Shown here: positions 43,419 to 57,229 of the stretch, in pieces
Layout: each line of letters begins with the position of its first letter
Numbering within the stretch: the stretch's first letter is position 1
NCBI RefSeq assembly: GCF_000230715.2
Contig: NC_019792.1
Span: 3,534,001 to 3,598,000, forward strand
Direction: 5' to 3'
DNA: 64,000 nucleotides
Source: Natronobacterium gregoryi SP2
GTDB lineage: Archaea; Halobacteriota; Halobacteria; Halobacteriales; Natrialbaceae
Translations under genes and position numbers: made by a program
The notes under the pieces: generated by a model
Told to the model about the DNA's origin: nothing
The model's input: the letters and a program-made list of their open reading frames with translations, nothing else
Databases searched by the model: none

Positions 43419-44312
43419 CTACGGCAACTCGACGTCGACCCCTTGCTGCAGGCTCGCTGCTTTGACGGTGTTGTAGAGCAGCATCGCGCGGGTCATCGGG
43501 CCGACGCCGCCGGGGACAGGAGTAATCGCGCTTGCCTTTTCTTTCGCGGTCTCGAACTCGACGTCGCCGACGAGTTCGTACCCTTTCTCCGTGTCCGCAT
43601 CCACGCGGTTCACCCCGACATCGACGACGACCGCGCCCTCACCGATCATCGAGCCGTCGACGAGTTCGGGTGCCCCCGCAGCGGCGACGACGACGTCGGC
43701 TCGCTGGGTCTTCGCGGCGAGGTCTTCGGTTCGTGAGTGACAGACCGTCACCGTCGCGTTGCCGTCGTCGGCCTTCTGGATCAACAGGTTCGCCAGCGGT
43801 TTGCCGACGATCTCCGAGCGGCCGACGATCGTTACGTCTGCGCCTTCGGTCTCGACGTCGTAGGCCTCGAGCAGTTTCTGGACGCCGTGGGGCGTACAGG
43901 GTCGGAACCTGGAGTCGCCGGCGACGAGGCGGCCGACGTTCTCGGGATGGAACCCATCGACGTCTTTTGCGGGGTCGACCCGACGGATGACCTCACGGTA
44001 GTCGACGTGGTCCGGGACGGGTGCCTGGACGATGTAGCCGTGGACGTCGGGATCGTCGTTTAGCGCAGCGATCTCGTCGTACAGTTCCGCCGGCGGGGCG
44101 TCGCCGTCCACGTCGACGTGGTAGCTCTCGATACCGACCTCCTCGCAGTCGCGCTGTTTCATGTTCACGTACGTCTCGCTGGCGGGATCGTCGCCCATCA
44201 ACACCGTCGCCAGCCCCGGCCGCGTGCCGTCGGCGGCGAGCGTCTCGATCGCGTCCGTCAACCCCTCGCGGATCTCGCTTGCAACGGCGTCGCCGTCGAT
44301 GATCTCGGTCAT
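43419..44312 (-). CDS. folD: Methylenetetrahydrofolate dehydrogenase/cyclohydrolase
   Basis: A 297-residue bifunctional FolD that interconverts 5,10-methylene-THF and 10-formyl-THF. The catalytic lysine region YVNMKQRDCEE (about 48-58), the VQAPVPDHVD loop, DVDGFHPENVGRL, the Rossmann motif VGRSEIVGKP and the C-terminal TPVPGGVGPMTRAM are present. It lies 344 bases from glyA on the same strand; both supply one-carbon units. AT-rich AATTAATT about 25-32 bases upstream implies a leaderless transcript. Confidence 0.95.
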   Translation of the reverse strand: MTEIIDGDAVASEIREGLTDAIETLAADGTRPGLATVLMGDDPASETYVNMKQRDCEEVGIESYHVDVDGDAPPAELYDEIAALNDDPDVHGYIVQAPVPDHVDYREVIRRVDPAKDVDGFHPENVGRLVAGDSRFRPCTPHGVQKLLEAYDVETEGADVTIVGRSEIVGKPLANLLIQKADDGNATVTVCHSRTEDLAAKTQRADVVVAAAGAPELVDGSMIGEGAVVVDVGVNRVDADTEKGYELVGDVEFETAKEKASAITPVPGGVGPMTRAMLLYNTVKAASLQQGVDVELP

Positions 44313-44656: not shown

Positions 44657-45904
44657 TTACTCGTAGAGGGGGTTCTCGTCACACAGTTGCTCGACGTCCT
44701 CACGGACCTCGGCGACGACCGACTCGTCGTCGGGTGCGTCGACGACGCGAGTGATGAGGTCGGCGACCGTGCGACAGTCCGCCTCGTCGAAGCCACGCGT
44801 CGTCAACGCGGCCGTGCCGGCACGGATACCCGACGGATCGAACGCCGACCGAGTTTCACCGGGCACTGTGTTCCCGTTCAGGACGATGCCAGCCTCCTCG
44901 AGTGCGTCCTCGGCGTCGCCACCGGAGGTGTCGGGATGGCTCTCGCGCAGGTCGACCAGCACGAGGTGGTTGTCGGTCCCGTCCGAGACCAGCGAGAAAC
45001 CGTTGTCGGCGAGTTGCTCGCCGAGTGCCTTCGCGTTCGCAACCGTTTGGCGTGCGTACGCCTCGAAATCGGGCTCGAGAGCTTCCTTGAAGCCGACGGC
45101 CTTGCCGGCGACGTTGTGCATAAGTGGGCCGCCCTGGCCGCCGGGGAAGACTGCGGAGTCGATGTCGTCTGCGTACTCCTCGTCACACATGACGATGCCG
45201 CCACGACCGGCACGGATCGTCTTGTGGGTCGAGCCGGTGACGAAGTCGGCGGTGCCGACCGGTGTCTCGTGGACACCCGCGGCGACGAGGCCCGTGATGT
45301 GGGCGATGTCAGCGAGGTGGTAGGCGTCGACGCTGTCGGCGGCTTCCTGAATGCGGTCCCACTCGACCTCGCGCGGGTACGCGGAGTAGCCCGAAACGAT
45401 GATATCCGGATCGAACTCCTCGGCGTGTTCGGCCAGACCCTCGTAGTCGAGGTAGCCAGTTTCGGGGTCGACCTCGTACTGTTCGACCTCGTAGAGCTGG
45501 CCGACGAAGTTCGCCGGGTGGCCGTGACTGAGGTGGCCGCCGTGAGTCAGGTCCAGCGAGAGAATCTTGTCGCCGGGCTCTAGCATCGCGAAGTAGACGG
45601 CCTGGTTCGCCTGCGTACCCGAATGAGGCTGGACGTTGACGTGGTCGGCCCCGAACAGCTCCGTCGCGCGTTCGATCGCGAGTTCCTCGACCTCGTCGGC
45701 GTACTCGCAGCCGCCGTAGTAGCGCGAGCCGGGATACCCCTCGGCGTACTTGTTCGTCATGACGCTTCCCTGAGCGTCGACGACCGCACGACTGGCGTGG
45801 TTCTCGCTCGCGATCATCTGCAGCGTCGACCGCTGGCGATCTATCTCGCTCTCGAGTGCGTCAGCAACGGCGGGATCGACGTCCCGAACGTGGTCGTGAT
45901 CCAT
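44657..45904 (-). CDS. glyA: Serine hydroxymethyltransferase
   Basis: A 415-residue PLP enzyme that converts serine to glycine and charges tetrahydrofolate with a methylene group. Visible are IASENHASRAV, the YAEGYPGSRYYGG loop, HSGTQANQAVY, and the PLP-lysine segment TGSTHKTIRAGRGG. ATG 45904 (MDHDHVRDVDPA) is 24 bases downstream of a TATA-like CACTTATACGAC (minus strand, about 45926-45937), suggesting a leaderless message. Confidence 0.96.
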   Translation of the reverse strand: MDHDHVRDVDPAVADALESEIDRQRSTLQMIASENHASRAVVDAQGSVMTNKYAEGYPGSRYYGGCEYADEVEELAIERATELFGADHVNVQPHSGTQANQAVYFAMLEPGDKILSLDLTHGGHLSHGHPANFVGQLYEVEQYEVDPETGYLDYEGLAEHAEEFDPDIIVSGYSAYPREVEWDRIQEAADSVDAYHLADIAHITGLVAAGVHETPVGTADFVTGSTHKTIRAGRGGIVMCDEEYADDIDSAVFPGGQGGPLMHNVAGKAVGFKEALEPDFEAYARQTVANAKALGEQLADNGFSLVSDGTDNHLVLVDLRESHPDTSGGDAEDALEEAGIVLNGNTVPGETRSAFDPSGIRAGTAALTTRGFDEADCRTVADLITRVVDAPDDESVVAEVREDVEQLCDENPLYE

Positions 45905-46070: not shown

Positions 46071-48254
46071 ATGATAGAGTGGGCGCTGGAAGAACGGATG
46101 CTCCGGGTCACCGACGTGGACAACGCGGAGCTATCCGTCCGTGGTGGCGATCTCACCGTCAGCGGCGACGGCCCCGACCTCTCGCGGGCGGTCGACGAAA
46201 CCGTCCTCGCGGAGACCACCCACCTCGAGTTCCCACACTCGGTCGTCTACGCGTTCTCGACGGAGTCGAACGACCGATACGAACTCGACCCCACAGGCGA
46301 GCCGCTCACGCTTGAGCCTGGCGAGTACGTCGTCGACGTCGACACGGAGATCAAGACCTATCTCCGGTTTTCTGGTCGGGCCACGATCGAGAAGACGCCG
46401 GACTTCGAGTCGGTCGTCGTCTCGTTTCCCGAGCGGACGGCGGTCGTCCTCGGCTTCCGGAGTCGACACGAACTCCCGGCAGGAACGATCACGGTCCCGG
46501 ACGACCCCGCGAAAGTCGCCGACGGGATCTCTCATCTCGCCGCCTCCCACAAGACCGCCGGCCCCGACCGGACCTACCCGACGCTACGGGGCCACCCCTC
46601 CCTGCTCGAGGCCGGCGACGAACTCGATATTCCCGATGCGCTCTCGATGGACGCTCCCGAGACGGGAATCGAACTCGTCGTTCCGCCCTGCTACGAGTCG
46701 CTGTACGTCACCGCACCGCTTTCGTACTACCTGCAGGCGACCGTTCGAACGACCGACCAGATCCCCGACGCATACGACGGCGACGACCCGAGAGCGCCCG
46801 TTCTCCGTCTCCCCGACGAGGGGGTCGAACGGCCACTCTCACCGCTGCCGACTCTCGAGCGTGACATCGAACGACTGCTCCGGAAGACGTTCTTCCTCGA
46901 CTGCCTCGTCCGCAACGCGGGACCGTACGGGACGAAACTCGCCGAAGAGACCCTCCTCGAGGAACTCGGCTGTGACGCCACCACCCTCTACGAGGCGTCA
47001 CCACAGACCCGGCTCGCAACCTACCTCGACGTGCCGTTTACCGCGATCGAACACCGGGTTCCGGAGTGGCATCTCTCGACGTACGTCGCACCCGAGTTCG
47101 ACCGTCTCGAGGCGCTTCCGTTCCTGCTCGATCGGATGAGCTTGATCTACCGACCGCGAACCTCCACGCTCGACGGGCAAGAACTGATCGAACGCTCGCT
47201 CGAGGACTTCTATCGGGGAACGAACACGACCGACGACTACGTCGCCGCCGACGCCGACCGGGCAAACGCCGGCGAGGTCGCCTCGGTCGATGTCGTCAAA
47301 CCCGAACTCCGGCACGGTCGCGTCCACGGCTGGCTCGCCGACGGCGTCCCGATCGACGTCTTCAAGTCCGCACCAGACGCCTACTACAATCGTCTCGACT
47401 ACCTCGGCCGCTCGAGCGACGCCACCTCGATCCGTGTCGTCCTCAACGACCCCGAGATGGGAAGCGAGTACGACGAGGTCGCACCGATCTACCGGCAACG
47501 CTCCGAAGAACTCCCCATCGATGTCGCCGTCGAAGAGTCACTCGAGATGGCCGACCTCGCCAGGATCTTCGAGAACGATCACGACTTCGTCCACTACATC
47601 GGTCACTGTGAGACCGACGGCTTCCGCTGTCCAGACGGCTACCTCTCGGTCTCGAGTCTCGATCGCTGCAACACCCAGACGTTCTTTCTCAACGCCTGTG
47701 GCTCCTTTTACGAAGGAAAACGGTTGATAGAGAAGGGAAGCGTCGCAGGCGCGGTGACTTTCTCGCAGGTTCTCAACGATCACGCCGTCACTGTCGGGTC
47801 GACGTTCGCGAAACTGTTGGTCCACGGGTTCAGCATCGAGCGCGCGATGGGGTTGGCTCGTCGTCGGATCATGATGGGAAAAGACTACGCGGTCGTCGGG
47901 GATGGCACCCACTCGCTGACACAGGCCGACCATCGGTTTCCGACGACGGTGACGGTCGACCCGCTCGACGGAGGGTCTGCCGACCTCTCCGGTCCAGTAT
48001 CGACGGGCTCCGGCGACTCGGCCGACCGGTATCACGTGACCGTCGACTGTTATATGACACGCGCGACTGGAGCGTACTACTACCCTCACACCGAGGACAA
48101 CGAGTACGCTTATCTCTGTGGGAACGAAACGAATATGACTCTCTCGAGCTCGGAACTGGTGACTTTACTGAAAGAAACGGAGGCGTCAGTTATCTACGAC
48201 GGGGACCTCTACTGGTCCGAGGAGTTGTGGCCTCGGTTCGAACGGACACGCTGA
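46071..48254 (+). CDS. CHAT-domain caspase-like peptidase with long unknown N-terminal region
   Basis: A 727-residue acidic protein. The C-terminal part (about 500-660) has the CHAT/separase-like clan CD peptidase signature: H512 in FVHYIGHCETDG and C543 in FFLNACGSFYEG, followed by LIEKGSVAGAVTFSQ, DHAVTVGSTFAKLL and the helix IERAMGLARRR, as in CHAT proteins. The N-terminal ~490 residues match nothing I recognise, and no TPR, WD or membrane segment is seen. It is presumably a cytoplasmic cysteine protease whose trigger and substrate are unknown. It stands alone, 117 bases before hairpin repeat copy 4 and 605 bases before tbsP. TATA-like CAATACAAC about 30 bases upstream of ATG 46071. Confidence 0.83.
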   Translation: MIEWALEERMLRVTDVDNAELSVRGGDLTVSGDGPDLSRAVDETVLAETTHLEFPHSVVYAFSTESNDRYELDPTGEPLTLEPGEYVVDVDTEIKTYLRFSGRATIEKTPDFESVVVSFPERTAVVLGFRSRHELPAGTITVPDDPAKVADGISHLAASHKTAGPDRTYPTLRGHPSLLEAGDELDIPDALSMDAPETGIELVVPPCYESLYVTAPLSYYLQATVRTTDQIPDAYDGDDPRAPVLRLPDEGVERPLSPLPTLERDIERLLRKTFFLDCLVRNAGPYGTKLAEETLLEELGCDATTLYEASPQTRLATYLDVPFTAIEHRVPEWHLSTYVAPEFDRLEALPFLLDRMSLIYRPRTSTLDGQELIERSLEDFYRGTNTTDDYVAADADRANAGEVASVDVVKPELRHGRVHGWLADGVPIDVFKSAPDAYYNRLDYLGRSSDATSIRVVLNDPEMGSEYDEVAPIYRQRSEELPIDVAVEESLEMADLARIFENDHDFVHYIGHCETDGFRCPDGYLSVSSLDRCNTQTFFLNACGSFYEGKRLIEKGSVAGAVTFSQVLNDHAVTVGSTFAKLLVHGFSIERAMGLARRRIMMGKDYAVVGDGTHSLTQADHRFPTTVTVDPLDGGSADLSGPVSTGSGDSADRYHVTVDCYMTRATGAYYYPHTEDNEYAYLCGNETNMTLSSSELVTLLKETEASVIYDGDLYWSEELWPRFERTR

Positions 48255-48364
48255 AACGGACTACTGCGAGTCAGTACCGACACGACCACGAACCCGTCCG
48301 TGGCCGGCCGGAACACCGTACAGCACTCCGTCACGTATCGCCGCCGTTGGCATCGCGTCACACT

Positions 48365-48417
48365 CCGTCGTAGTCAATTATTGCCGATCGCCAGTACGTA
48401 GTTACAGCAAACCGTAT
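48365..48417. repeat. Dispersed hairpin repeat, copy 4 (deleted derivative)
   Basis: Its right end TTACAGCAAACCGTAT matches the repeat terminus; the core TTGCCGATCGCCAG matches subfamily I. Compared with copy 1, about 20 bases of loop plus one inner arm are missing, so the full hairpin is lost. It lies about 110 bases downstream of the CHAT gene. Confidence 0.7.
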
Positions 48418-48820
48418 CAGGGCCCGCCGTACGTACTGATTCCTTTCGCACGAACTGATCGTTCGGTTGGCCGTCCTGACTGTCCATCGACTTGTCGATT
48501 ACCGATCCACCACGATCGGTCTTCTCGATCACCCATGCGTTCCTATAATTGCAAATGGCCGTTATATATTTATTGCTGCACAGTTGGCTTTTAGTACCGG
48601 TCTAATTTTGACTTCGCTTTCGGGGTCAGAATTGGCCGCCCTTCAGTGGCGACCACATCCCACGGTCACTGCTACCGACTTGATTCCGACGATCTATTAC
48701 TGCAGCAACACGTTCTGCTGTCCCAACATGCCGTCTCAGAGCTATCCCTCCGACGATCGGGGCAGAAAAGTGCTCGTACTGACAGGCGGCCAGTGGACTT
48801 ATAGTACCGTAACGGCCGGC

Positions 48821-48828
48821 ATAATTAA
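48821..48828 (+). promoter_or_regulatory. TATA box for tbsP
   Basis: ATAATTAA lies 32-39 bases before ATG 48860. This fits a short-leader transcript. Confidence 0.5.
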
Positions 48829-48859
48829 GTGAATTTCTCGCGTTTACTTCTTCACACGC

Positions 48860-49678
48860 ATGACCTCGAATTTACTCAACCACCAGATTGACGATATCCT
48901 CGGGACTGTACTCGAGGATGCAACCGGGGATATCTACATGGTAAATCCCTCCTGGGACGCCATCGAAGAGTTCGTCTCGGTCGCTACGGCGTTCGACGAC
49001 TCCCTTCCGACCGTCCACATGCTCGCGGACGAACGGACGCTCAAAGACGTCATGGACGACTTCATCGTCGCCTCGAACGCTGCCGACCTCATCAGTGAGG
49101 ACGCCCTCTCACTCCGGACGCTCGAGGAAGCTCCCGAGAACTCGCTTCTGGTTACCGACGAGCGCACCATCGCGATCGTCCACGCAGGCGACCGCGTCGG
49201 CGGACTCATCACCGAAGACGAGAGTTTCGTCGAGGACACGTACGACACCTACGCGGCACGCTGGGGGGAGGCAACCGAGTTCAACCTCCGGACGCCCCCG
49301 ATCACCGACGTCCGCGAGACGCTCTCCGAGGAGATCGGCACGGCGGCCGAAGAAGACTTCTCCTCGATCCTGAACTCGCTCGAGACCGCTCGCGGCGACG
49401 GCGAGGGCCTCGACGAAGTGACCATCTCGCTGCTCGTGGCCGCCCGCAACGAGGCCCTGCTGTACGACATCAGCAAGTGGGGCGAAGACGTCGGCATCGC
49501 CTCGAAGGCGACGTTCAGTCGAACGAAGACCAAACTCGAGGACATGGGACTGATCGACACCGAGAAAGTCCCGATCGACGTCGGTCGTCCACGCCTGCGC
49601 CTGAAGATCGGCGACGACCGACTCCACGAGGCTGACAACGGCCAGCTCGCGACGGTTGCACAGTCGATTCTGAACTGA
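48860..49678 (+). CDS. tbsP: Transcriptional regulator TbsP-like (DUF5821)
   Basis: A 272-residue protein opening MTSNLLNHQIDDILGTVLED. The N-terminal ~150 residues are an alpha/beta domain (DIYMVNPSW, SLLVTDERTIAIVH), and the C-terminal part is a winged-helix DNA-binding region (KWGEDVGIASKATFSRTKTK, with LEDMGLIDTEKV). This is the pattern of haloarchaeal TbsP, a regulator linked to sugar metabolism together with TrmB in Haloferax. Assignment rests on sequence memory, not a search. It is preceded by an intergenic region with its own TATA. Confidence 0.82.
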   Translation: MTSNLLNHQIDDILGTVLEDATGDIYMVNPSWDAIEEFVSVATAFDDSLPTVHMLADERTLKDVMDDFIVASNAADLISEDALSLRTLEEAPENSLLVTDERTIAIVHAGDRVGGLITEDESFVEDTYDTYAARWGEATEFNLRTPPITDVRETLSEEIGTAAEEDFSSILNSLETARGDGEGLDEVTISLLVAARNEALLYDISKWGEDVGIASKATFSRTKTKLEDMGLIDTEKVPIDVGRPRLRLKIGDDRLHEADNGQLATVAQSILN

Positions 49679-53119: not shown

Positions 53120-53881
53120 ATGCAGGGACAAGCCCAACAGCAGGCGTACGACCGAGGCATCACGATCTTCTCGCCGGACGGCCGACTCTACCAGGTCGAG
53201 TACGCCCGCGAGGCGGTCAAGCGAGGTACGGCAAGTATCGGCGTTCGAACGCAGGACGGCGTCGTCCTGGCAGTCGACAAACGAGTCCCCTCTCCGCTGC
53301 TAGAGGACTCGAGCGTCGAAAAGCTTCACAAGGCCGACGACCACGTCGGCATCGCCAGTGCCGGTCACGTCGCCGACGCGCGCCAGTTGATCGACTTCGC
53401 GCGCCGCCAGGCCCAGGTCAACCAACTGCGCTACGGCCAGCCGATCGGCGTCGAAACGCTGACCAAGGAAGTCACCGACCACATCCAGCAGTACACGCAG
53501 GTCGGCGGTGCGCGACCGTTCGGCGTCGCCCTGATCGTCGGCGGCATCGACAACGGCGAACCGCGCCTGTTCGAGACCGATCCCTCGGGAACCCCCTACG
53601 AGTGGAAGGCTCTGGCAGTCGGCGCGGATCGGGGCGACCTCCAAGATTACCTCGAGGAGAACTACGACGAAGAGGCAGACCTCGACGGCGGCATCTCGCT
53701 TGCCCTCGACGCGCTCGCGTCGGCCAACGAAGGCTCGCTGCTCCCCAACGAAGTCGGAATCGCGACGATCGACGTCGAGACCGAACGATACGAACAGTTC
53801 GATCGCGACCGTATCGAGAGTCATCTCGAGGAGAACGACCTGCTCGGGACCGAAGACGACACCGACGAGAGCGACGAGTAA
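53120..53881 (+). CDS. psmA: Proteasome subunit alpha
   Basis: A 253-residue structural 20S proteasome subunit. The N-terminal gate segment AYDRGITIFSPDGRLYQVEYAREAV and the KRGTASIGVRTQDGVV strand are diagnostic. The long acidic C-terminal tail (LLGTEDDTDESDE) lacks a terminal docking tyrosine. It is the last gene of the rnp3-methyltransferase-rnp2-psmA operon. SBDS, which normally follows closely in haloarchaea, is displaced by the mobile-element array beginning 58 bases downstream. Confidence 0.97.
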   Translation: MQGQAQQQAYDRGITIFSPDGRLYQVEYAREAVKRGTASIGVRTQDGVVLAVDKRVPSPLLEDSSVEKLHKADDHVGIASAGHVADARQLIDFARRQAQVNQLRYGQPIGVETLTKEVTDHIQQYTQVGGARPFGVALIVGGIDNGEPRLFETDPSGTPYEWKALAVGADRGDLQDYLEENYDEEADLDGGISLALDALASANEGSLLPNEVGIATIDVETERYEQFDRDRIESHLEENDLLGTEDDTDESDE

Positions 53882-54707: not shown

Positions 54708-55859
54708 ATGAGTGACAGAAGTTTTGGGCGTGGGCTAAGACGAACGGGGTAATGGGAGGAGACCGGCGGGGCGAGCTCGTTCGTCATCTGAGCGAGGAGG
54801 AGTTGGATCGTCTGCTGGACGAAGCAGACGATCCAAAGGTCGTCAAGCGGCTCACCTTTGTCAAACGTCTCTACAAGGGTGCAACGTACGAAGAAGCAGC
54901 CGACGACGTTGGGAAATCTGCGTCGACTGGAAGTCGCTGGGCACGTCGATGGAACGATGGCGGGCTGGGTCAGTTGACACCGAACTTCGGGGGCGGAAGG
55001 CCCCCGAAGCTCGGTGACGAGGAACAAGAGTGTCTTCTAGAACTTCTCCGGGAGGGACAGCCCTGGAAAGCACAGGAAGTTCACCAGCTCTTGGACGAAG
55101 AGTTCGATGTTGAGTACCATCCGGATTATCTCGGTCGATTCCTCCGGAATCTCGGACTGTCTTACGCTAAACCACGTCCAAAACGTCCCTCACGGCCAGA
55201 AAATGCAGATGAAATCCTCGAAGAACGCGTCGCAGACGCGTTCGACGAGGAAACAGAGACAGCACATAACAAGCGTCCCGAGGATGAGGACGAAGGCTGG
55301 GTTCTCGACGACGATATCTGTACAGATGGAGGAACTATCGTCGGTTTTTGTGACGCTTCTCATCCGCAACCATACGACAATTCGCATCGACTGTGGTACG
55401 TCGATGATCCGACACTCGAACGACCGCTGGTGAAGCTTGACGAACCAGCGGTCGGGTGCTATACGCTCAACGGCGAAAGTGTCCTGACCTTTCCTGAAGA
55501 TCAATCGAAAGAGAACATCTGTGCCCTATTGGAGGAGGTCCGCGAGCAGAATCCGGGAACGCGGATTCTGCTCGTCTTGGACAACTTCTCGTCTCACATC
55601 TGTGAGCACACGCGCAAGCGCGCACATCAACTCGGTATCGATCTCGTCTTTCTTCCGGTCGGTTCACCGCATCTCAATCCAATCGAGCAGGTCTGGAAAG
55701 TGCTCAAACGGAATGCTTCACCAATCGTCGTGGCGAGCGAGAGCGCGTTCCGCACTCTCGCTCGCCGCCTCTTCAACACCCTCACCGATCGACTTGGATT
55801 CGCCAAGTCTTGGATCGACCAGTTCCTCAGTCCATATTTGCAAAAGTTATCTTGATCAT
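54708..55859. mobile_element. IS630-family insertion sequence inside the IS1595 transposase gene
   Basis: A 1152-base element flanked by TA (54706-54707 and 55860-55861), the target duplicated by IS630/Tc1-mariner elements. The terminal inverted repeats are ATGA...AAGTTTT on the left and AAAAGTTATCTTGATCAT on the right. It carries a single intact transposase gene, so it may be the active, youngest insertion. Confidence 0.85.
54752..55855 (+). CDS. IS630-family transposase
   Basis: A 367-residue transposase that is full length. The N-terminal ~110 residues contain two helix-turn-helix modules (TYEEAADDVGKSASTGSRW, KAQEVHQLLDEEF); the C-terminal DDE_3 domain has aspartate D in ILLVLDNFSSH and glutamate E in NPIEQVWKVLKR, with the first aspartate in the DDDICTDGG/FCDASH region. 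It catalyses cut-and-paste transposition into TA. No frameshift. The lower GC of its 3' part compared with neighbours fits recent acquisition. Confidence 0.92.
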   Translation: MGGDRRGELVRHLSEEELDRLLDEADDPKVVKRLTFVKRLYKGATYEEAADDVGKSASTGSRWARRWNDGGLGQLTPNFGGGRPPKLGDEEQECLLELLREGQPWKAQEVHQLLDEEFDVEYHPDYLGRFLRNLGLSYAKPRPKRPSRPENADEILEERVADAFDEETETAHNKRPEDEDEGWVLDDDICTDGGTIVGFCDASHPQPYDNSHRLWYVDDPTLERPLVKLDEPAVGCYTLNGESVLTFPEDQSKENICALLEEVREQNPGTRILLVLDNFSSHICEHTRKRAHQLGIDLVFLPVGSPHLNPIEQVWKVLKRNASPIVVASESAFRTLARRLFNTLTDRLGFAKSWIDQFLSPYLQKLS

Positions 55860-56503: not shown

Positions 56504-57229
56504 ATGATATCACTCGACGAGGCAGTGACGGCGCGACTTGAGTCACACGGGGCGCGCTTCGAAGTGTTGGTCGACCCGGACGCGGCACTCGAGATCAAAC
56601 GCGACGAGTTCGACGGCGATCTCGAGGACGTGATTGCGGCGGAAGACGTCTTCGAGGACGCCTCGCGTGGCGACCGGCCGGCGGAGGACGACCTCGAGAC
56701 GGTGTTCGACACGACCGAACCGCTCGAGATCATTCCAGAGGTCATCACGGAGGGAGAGATTCAGATCACGGCCGAGCAGCGCCGCGAGATGCAAGAACAA
56801 AAGCGCAAGCAGTTGATCGATACGATCGCACGCAACGCGATCAACCCGCAGATGGACGACGCTCCCCACCCGCCCGAACGCATCGAGAACGCGCTCGAGG
56901 AGGCGGGCTTTACGGTCGATCCGATGGAGCCCGTCGAGAACCAGGTCGACGACGCGCTGGATGCGCTCCGGCCAGTCATCCCGATCCGGTTCGAAGAGGT
57001 GACAGTCGCCGTCCAGATTCCCGCGGAGTACGCGGGCAGTGCCCAGGCACAGGTGCGACAGTTCGGCGACCTAGAACGCGAGGAGTGGCAGCCCGACGGG
57101 TCCTGGATCGGCGTCGTCACGTTCCCGGCAGGGATGCAAAACGACTTCTACAACGTCGTCAACGAACACTCGAGCGGCAAAGCCGAGACGGAAATCGTCA
57201 AGGACAAAGACGACCTGAAAACTCGGTAG
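56504..57229 (+). CDS. Ribosome maturation factor SBDS
   Basis: A 241-residue SBDS/Sdo1 protein, which helps release eIF6 from the large ribosomal subunit. The N-terminal FYSH domain ([26 protein letters not shown]), the central helical domain ([27 protein letters not shown]) and the C-terminal ferredoxin-like domain ([23 protein letters not shown]) are all present. In many haloarchaea it follows psmA directly; here 2.6 kb of mobile DNA intervenes. The region just upstream has TATA-like TTTTACCC about 25-30 bases before the ATG. Confidence 0.95.

Follow-up and report, generated by a model that had tools for sequence, protein, structure and literature searches.

A CHAT-type peptidase family predicted at the housekeeping glyA–tbsP locus of haloarchaea

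The window, a 64,000-nucleotide stretch of the Natronobacterium gregoryi SP2 genome (a single contig of 3,788,356 bases), encodes a 727-residue protein that is predicted to be a CHAT/separase-type (clan CD) cysteine peptidase. With moderate confidence, this protein is assigned as the glyA–tbsP-locus orthologue of a family of regulated endopeptidases that occurs in haloarchaea and one methanogen family, and it probably has a role in stress or metabolic signalling. CHAT-type peptidases themselves are known; this family was previously unclassified and uncharacterised, in agreement with a sequence-only reading of the same DNA, which had described an uncharacterised protease whose N-terminal module resembles no known family. 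The open reading frame begins with ATG and occupies exactly 46071–48254 of the forward strand, stop codon included, with H512 and C543 at the positions given in that reading. The first residues of the protein, MIEW, match the family consensus start in an alignment of 52 relatives, and the nearest named relatives among those found belong to Halobiforma.

An AlphaFold2 model of this protein was built from the alignment of 52 relatives (mean pLDDT of 86.6, pTM of 0.85). The model divides into an all-beta, beta-sandwich-like domain (residues 1–142, 46071–46496), which has a weak Foldseek likeness to non-catalytic beta-sandwiches of glycoside hydrolases, an alpha/beta module (residues 146–383, 46506–47219), the CHAT domain (residues 408–615, 47292–47915) and an alpha/beta C-terminal extension that contains the conserved residue G667 (residues 625–727, 47943–48251). 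In a Foldseek search of the PDB, the best match is a CRISPR-linked SAVED-CHAT filament (PDB ID: 8tl0, E-value of 2.3e-8), followed by gingipain R (5.1e-6) and the Chaetomium separase ctSPD (6.0e-6, rmsd of 4.0 across 188 columns); caspase-4 (7.4e-4) and other inflammatory caspases are found lower in the list. Because the rmsd is high in most of the longer alignments, the good match is confined to the peptidase core. Within this core, H512 follows the strand formed by residues 504–510 and C543 follows the strand formed by residues 535–541, both in regions with pLDDT values above 90. This placement of each residue after a strand is the arrangement expected for clan CD. The model thus has the caspase-like alpha/beta fold of CHAT and other clan CD peptidases, as well as a conserved His and a conserved Cys that end two core strands, and the CHAT-type assignment made in the sequence-only reading is borne out by the confident model, the structural matches and the conserved dyad.

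In sequence searches, the window protein alone has no useful match in Pfam, NCBIfam, PADLOC or the PDB sequences, a profile search of the PDB returned chance matches only, and a first scan of the genome contigs with the single protein found no match. The Pfam CHAT family (PF12770) is reached by 20 of the 52 relatives, one of them shown above the cut-off (25.4 bits against 24) and the others below it; no PF12770 match is present in the window protein or elsewhere in its genome. Neither Peptidase_C14 (caspase/metacaspase) nor Peptidase_C50 (separase) is matched in Pfam by the window protein or its relatives, and a search of a viral structure library gave two weak matches near 1e-3 and nothing more. 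A Pfam match of residues 5–44 to a heavy-metal domain (16.5 bits, cut-off of 24.8) was taken as chance.

The predicted catalytic residues, H512 (47604–47606, motif HYIGHCE) and C543 (47697–47699, motif FFLNACGS), are invariant in 64/64 aligned homologues, including the one distant paralogue in the window's own genome (35% identical). In a wider set of 75 members, composed of 14 orthologues and 61 other copies, 59 have both residues, 16 have neither and none has a single one, an all-or-none pattern that is expected of a catalytic pair. In the tree, the dyad-less copies fall into three or more distinct groups and therefore represent at least three joint losses rather than sixteen. N459, E466, C520, N541 and S545 are conserved alongside the dyad and are often gone from the dyad-less copies. 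Two residues after the predicted catalytic His, E514 (47610–47612) is Glu or Asp in every orthologue; in Csx29, E617 positions H615 with the same spacing (PMC10028731). Two further Cys residues lie near the active-site His: C520 (47628–47630) is invariant in all dyad-bearing members, and C513 (47607–47609), directly beside the His, is invariant in the orthologues only. Metal or redox control through C513 and C520 is possible.

The joint loss of the dyad bears on whether catalysis is the main activity of the protein. The most conserved residues of the N-terminal region, R173, D277, R281 and Y318, all lie in the alpha/beta module, and in the 75-member set R173, D277 and Y318 are kept in the dyad-less copies, as is R281 in most of them. 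Retention of these residues in pseudo-proteases indicates that the N-terminal part works without catalysis. By extension, the orthologue might mainly bind or scaffold through this module, with catalysis secondary or vestigial, as several paralogue lineages without the dyad keep the N-terminal residues. This alternative is considered unlikely, however, as neither dyad residue has been lost in any of 63 orthologues and the CHAT part is the best conserved stretch of the protein. The repeated joint loss of both dyad residues with the N-terminal module kept provides a natural set of pseudo-proteases in the wider family.

The N-terminal region was also modelled alone (residues 1–405, pLDDT of 87.6) and again shows a beta-rich part (residues 1–142) followed by an alpha/beta module (residues 146–383). 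Foldseek returned a sole nominal PDB match below 0.001, which has a probability of 0.23 and was discounted as not credible. GH31 glucosidases follow (E-value of ~0.008, TM-score of 0.2), and their likeness presumably reflects their non-catalytic N-terminal beta-sandwich. No match to SAVED is found among the best 50 results. A pseudo-caspase domain ahead of the active one, comparable to those in Csx29 and separase, was considered and rejected, as no clan CD structure is among the same 50. As judged from this model, the N-terminal region is without an assignable solved homologue. The sequence-only reading was thus correct in calling this region an orphan; its length is ~400 rather than 490 residues, since the CHAT core, including its leading strands, begins near residue 408.

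In dyad-bearing members, residue 460, which is located after strand 1 (D460 in the window protein, 47448–47450), is acidic (Asp or Glu) in 59/59 sequences and may belong to the S1 pocket. The S1 arginine of caspases is placed at the equivalent spot after strand 1, and gingipain and separase cut after a basic residue. An acidic residue at this position predicts a basic P1 residue rather than aspartate, and this comparison of clan CD structures with a sequence position suggests that cleavage after a basic residue is likelier than cleavage after aspartate. The prediction is relevant to an orphan activity in the same organisms. In Haloferax volcanii and other haloarchaea, strong caspase-like LEVDase/VEIDase activity has been reported with no gene assigned (PMC3615174), although archaea were considered to lack clear caspase homologues. 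The present family is a widespread caspase-fold candidate in haloarchaea, as counted across the sampled Halobacteriales genomes, and the protein or a paralogue could be the source of the activity, including that of H. volcanii. This possibility is judged very improbable, as the Asp or Glu at residue 460 points to a basic P1 residue and the same activity has also been reported in archaea outside the group in which the family is found (PMC3615174).

The family is distributed widely and in a vertical-looking manner. A homologue is present in 268 of the 293 sampled Halobacteriales genomes; by an estimate from E-values, roughly 180 of the 293 have an orthologue and the remaining positive genomes have paralogues only. 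Paralogues are frequent overall. As the orthologue is missing from a sizeable minority of genomes, it is not essential. A search at the level of the phylum identified matches in one other family, in four genomes that we take to be Methanocella, and thus methanogens.

At the orthologue loci, the gene has a housekeeping setting. In the window, it is flanked upstream by the divergent glyA gene (serine hydroxymethyltransferase, 44657–45904, reverse strand, start inferred at 45904) and the second neighbour folD (43419–44312, reverse strand), and downstream by the gene for the transcriptional regulator TbsP (48860–49678, forward strand); pop5, psmA, a methyltransferase gene and an SBDS gene are also found in these surroundings. 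Among 116 orthologue loci, which include the same genomes from two collections and thus represent fewer independent genomes, glyA adjoins the gene in 112, nearly always upstream and divergent, and in 110 the following gene downstream, on the same strand, is tbsP. A check of conserved neighbours, proposed in the sequence-only reading, thus finds glyA, folD and tbsP recurring around the orthologues. In 16 of 20 tbsP loci from genomes in which no orthologue was found, glyA lies directly beside tbsP and the gene is missing. This comparison of occupied and empty sites indicates that the gene comes and goes at one fixed position. The fixed synteny may reflect inheritance alone rather than function with tbsP or glyA. 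Between the peptidase gene and tbsP, a stretch of 605 bases (48255–48859) is richer in AT, which suggests that tbsP has its own promoter. Further downstream, an IS630-family transposase gene (54752–55855, forward strand) is located between psmA (53120–53881) and the SBDS gene (56504–57229).

The same locus weighs on the hint, given in the sequence-only reading, of a part in cell death or antiviral defence. In such a scenario, the protein would be a sensor-CHAT effector that responds to infection by killing the cell or cleaving a death substrate. CHAT proteases elsewhere act in antiviral defence and cell death, the top structural match is the CRISPR-linked SAVED-CHAT protein, and a few paralogues are plasmid-borne. 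The orthologue, in contrast, occupies one fixed housekeeping locus across the order, with clean presence or absence between glyA and tbsP, and its neighbours are folD, glyA, tbsP, pop5, psmA and SBDS rather than defence genes. PADLOC finds no matches in the neighbourhood, no gasdermin-type partner or CRISPR locus was recognised, and the loci examined show no defence island, mobile distribution or match to a defence model that would mark an anti-phage system. Weak PADLOC matches (DrmA at 6e-5 in one member, ZorA and DpdE) were read as noise. No relatives were found in viruses among IMG/VR contigs and phage records. Plasmid copies are present in 25 haloarchaeal records, mostly annotated as hypothetical, with one labelled “caspase family” and one “CHAT domain-containing”; WP_253484706.1 and WP_254546615.1, which carry one or the other of these labels in RefSeq and have not been described further, are paralogues from this family. 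On present evidence, the protein is not a defence system, and a role as an antiviral or cell-death effector is regarded as improbable. Because many haloarchaea carry the gene at a single shared chromosomal site, it probably encodes a regulated protease of everyday use rather than a virus-defence protein.

The orthologue stands alone, as described in the sequence-only reading, but this description does not extend to a group of paralogues that are found behind DUF7504 or histidine kinase genes in an operon-like order. In 10 of 60 paralogue loci (L206, L208, L215, L217, L221, L222, L225, L230, L234 and L239), a DUF7504 gene lies 22–122 bases upstream on the same strand, and the linked paralogues are spread over several subclades of the tree. 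The window's genome contains just three DUF7504 genes, so the pairing with the paralogues is far above chance, and the two genes appear to form an undescribed operon-like pair. In the literature searched, nothing was found on CHAT proteins in haloarchaea or on DUF7504. PAS or GAF histidine kinase genes are upstream in a further three paralogue loci. One genome contains three tandem family copies (L242:101–7040, reverse strand), none of which has the catalytic His or Cys. A general link between paralogues and TbsP-like regulators was considered and rejected, as it was confined to a single clade of one genus, in which a diverged TbsP-like regulator is found close to a dyad-less paralogue (L244, L246, L248, L249 and L252), and to one other locus (L253), where the regulator is ~0.4 kb upstream of an intact paralogue.

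Comparison with known systems places the protein near several clan CD peptidases. SAVED-CHAT likewise combines a CHAT peptidase with an N-terminal sensor part, whereas the window protein lacks a SAVED domain, has no recognised PCaspase gene or CRISPR or CBASS neighbours, and is encoded at a fixed chromosomal locus. Csx29, the TPR-CHAT protein of type III-E CRISPR, has in common the His/Cys CHAT active site and the acidic residue two positions after the His; in contrast, the window protein has no TPR repeats and no Cas7-11 partner, and its N-terminal fold differs. Separase (family C50) has the same clan CD fold and a large N-terminal part ahead of the peptidase, but the window protein is prokaryotic, lacks an alpha-solenoid and has no securin-like gene in view. 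Gingipain R (Peptidase_C25) also has the clan CD fold and, unlike the window protein, in which no signal peptide is apparent, is secreted and has a prodomain.

For the regulated endopeptidase proposed here, the C-terminal CHAT domain would make limited cuts in specific protein substrates through H512 and C543, and the N-terminal beta-sandwich and alpha/beta module would bind a signal, a partner or a substrate. This module may keep the peptidase latent until a trigger arrives, much as separase is held by its N-terminal part and Csx29 by its TPR part; it has been established that Csx29 makes limited cuts under allosteric control (PMC10028731). The placement of some paralogues directly behind signal-transduction genes is consistent with such control. 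The outcome would be a physiological switch, used in normal stress responses or metabolism, rather than obligatory suicide. As a caspase-fold family that is present at a fixed locus and in most of the sampled genomes, with genetically tractable hosts, it opens the protease question, and the orphan caspase-like activity as well, to direct testing. More tentatively, haloarchaea may possess a native network in which CHAT proteases under signal control and pseudo-proteases without the dyad share a new N-terminal sensing fold and are wired to histidine kinases and DUF7504 proteins. If true, this network would serve ordinary physiology as a prokaryotic counterpart to regulation by caspases and pseudo-caspases.
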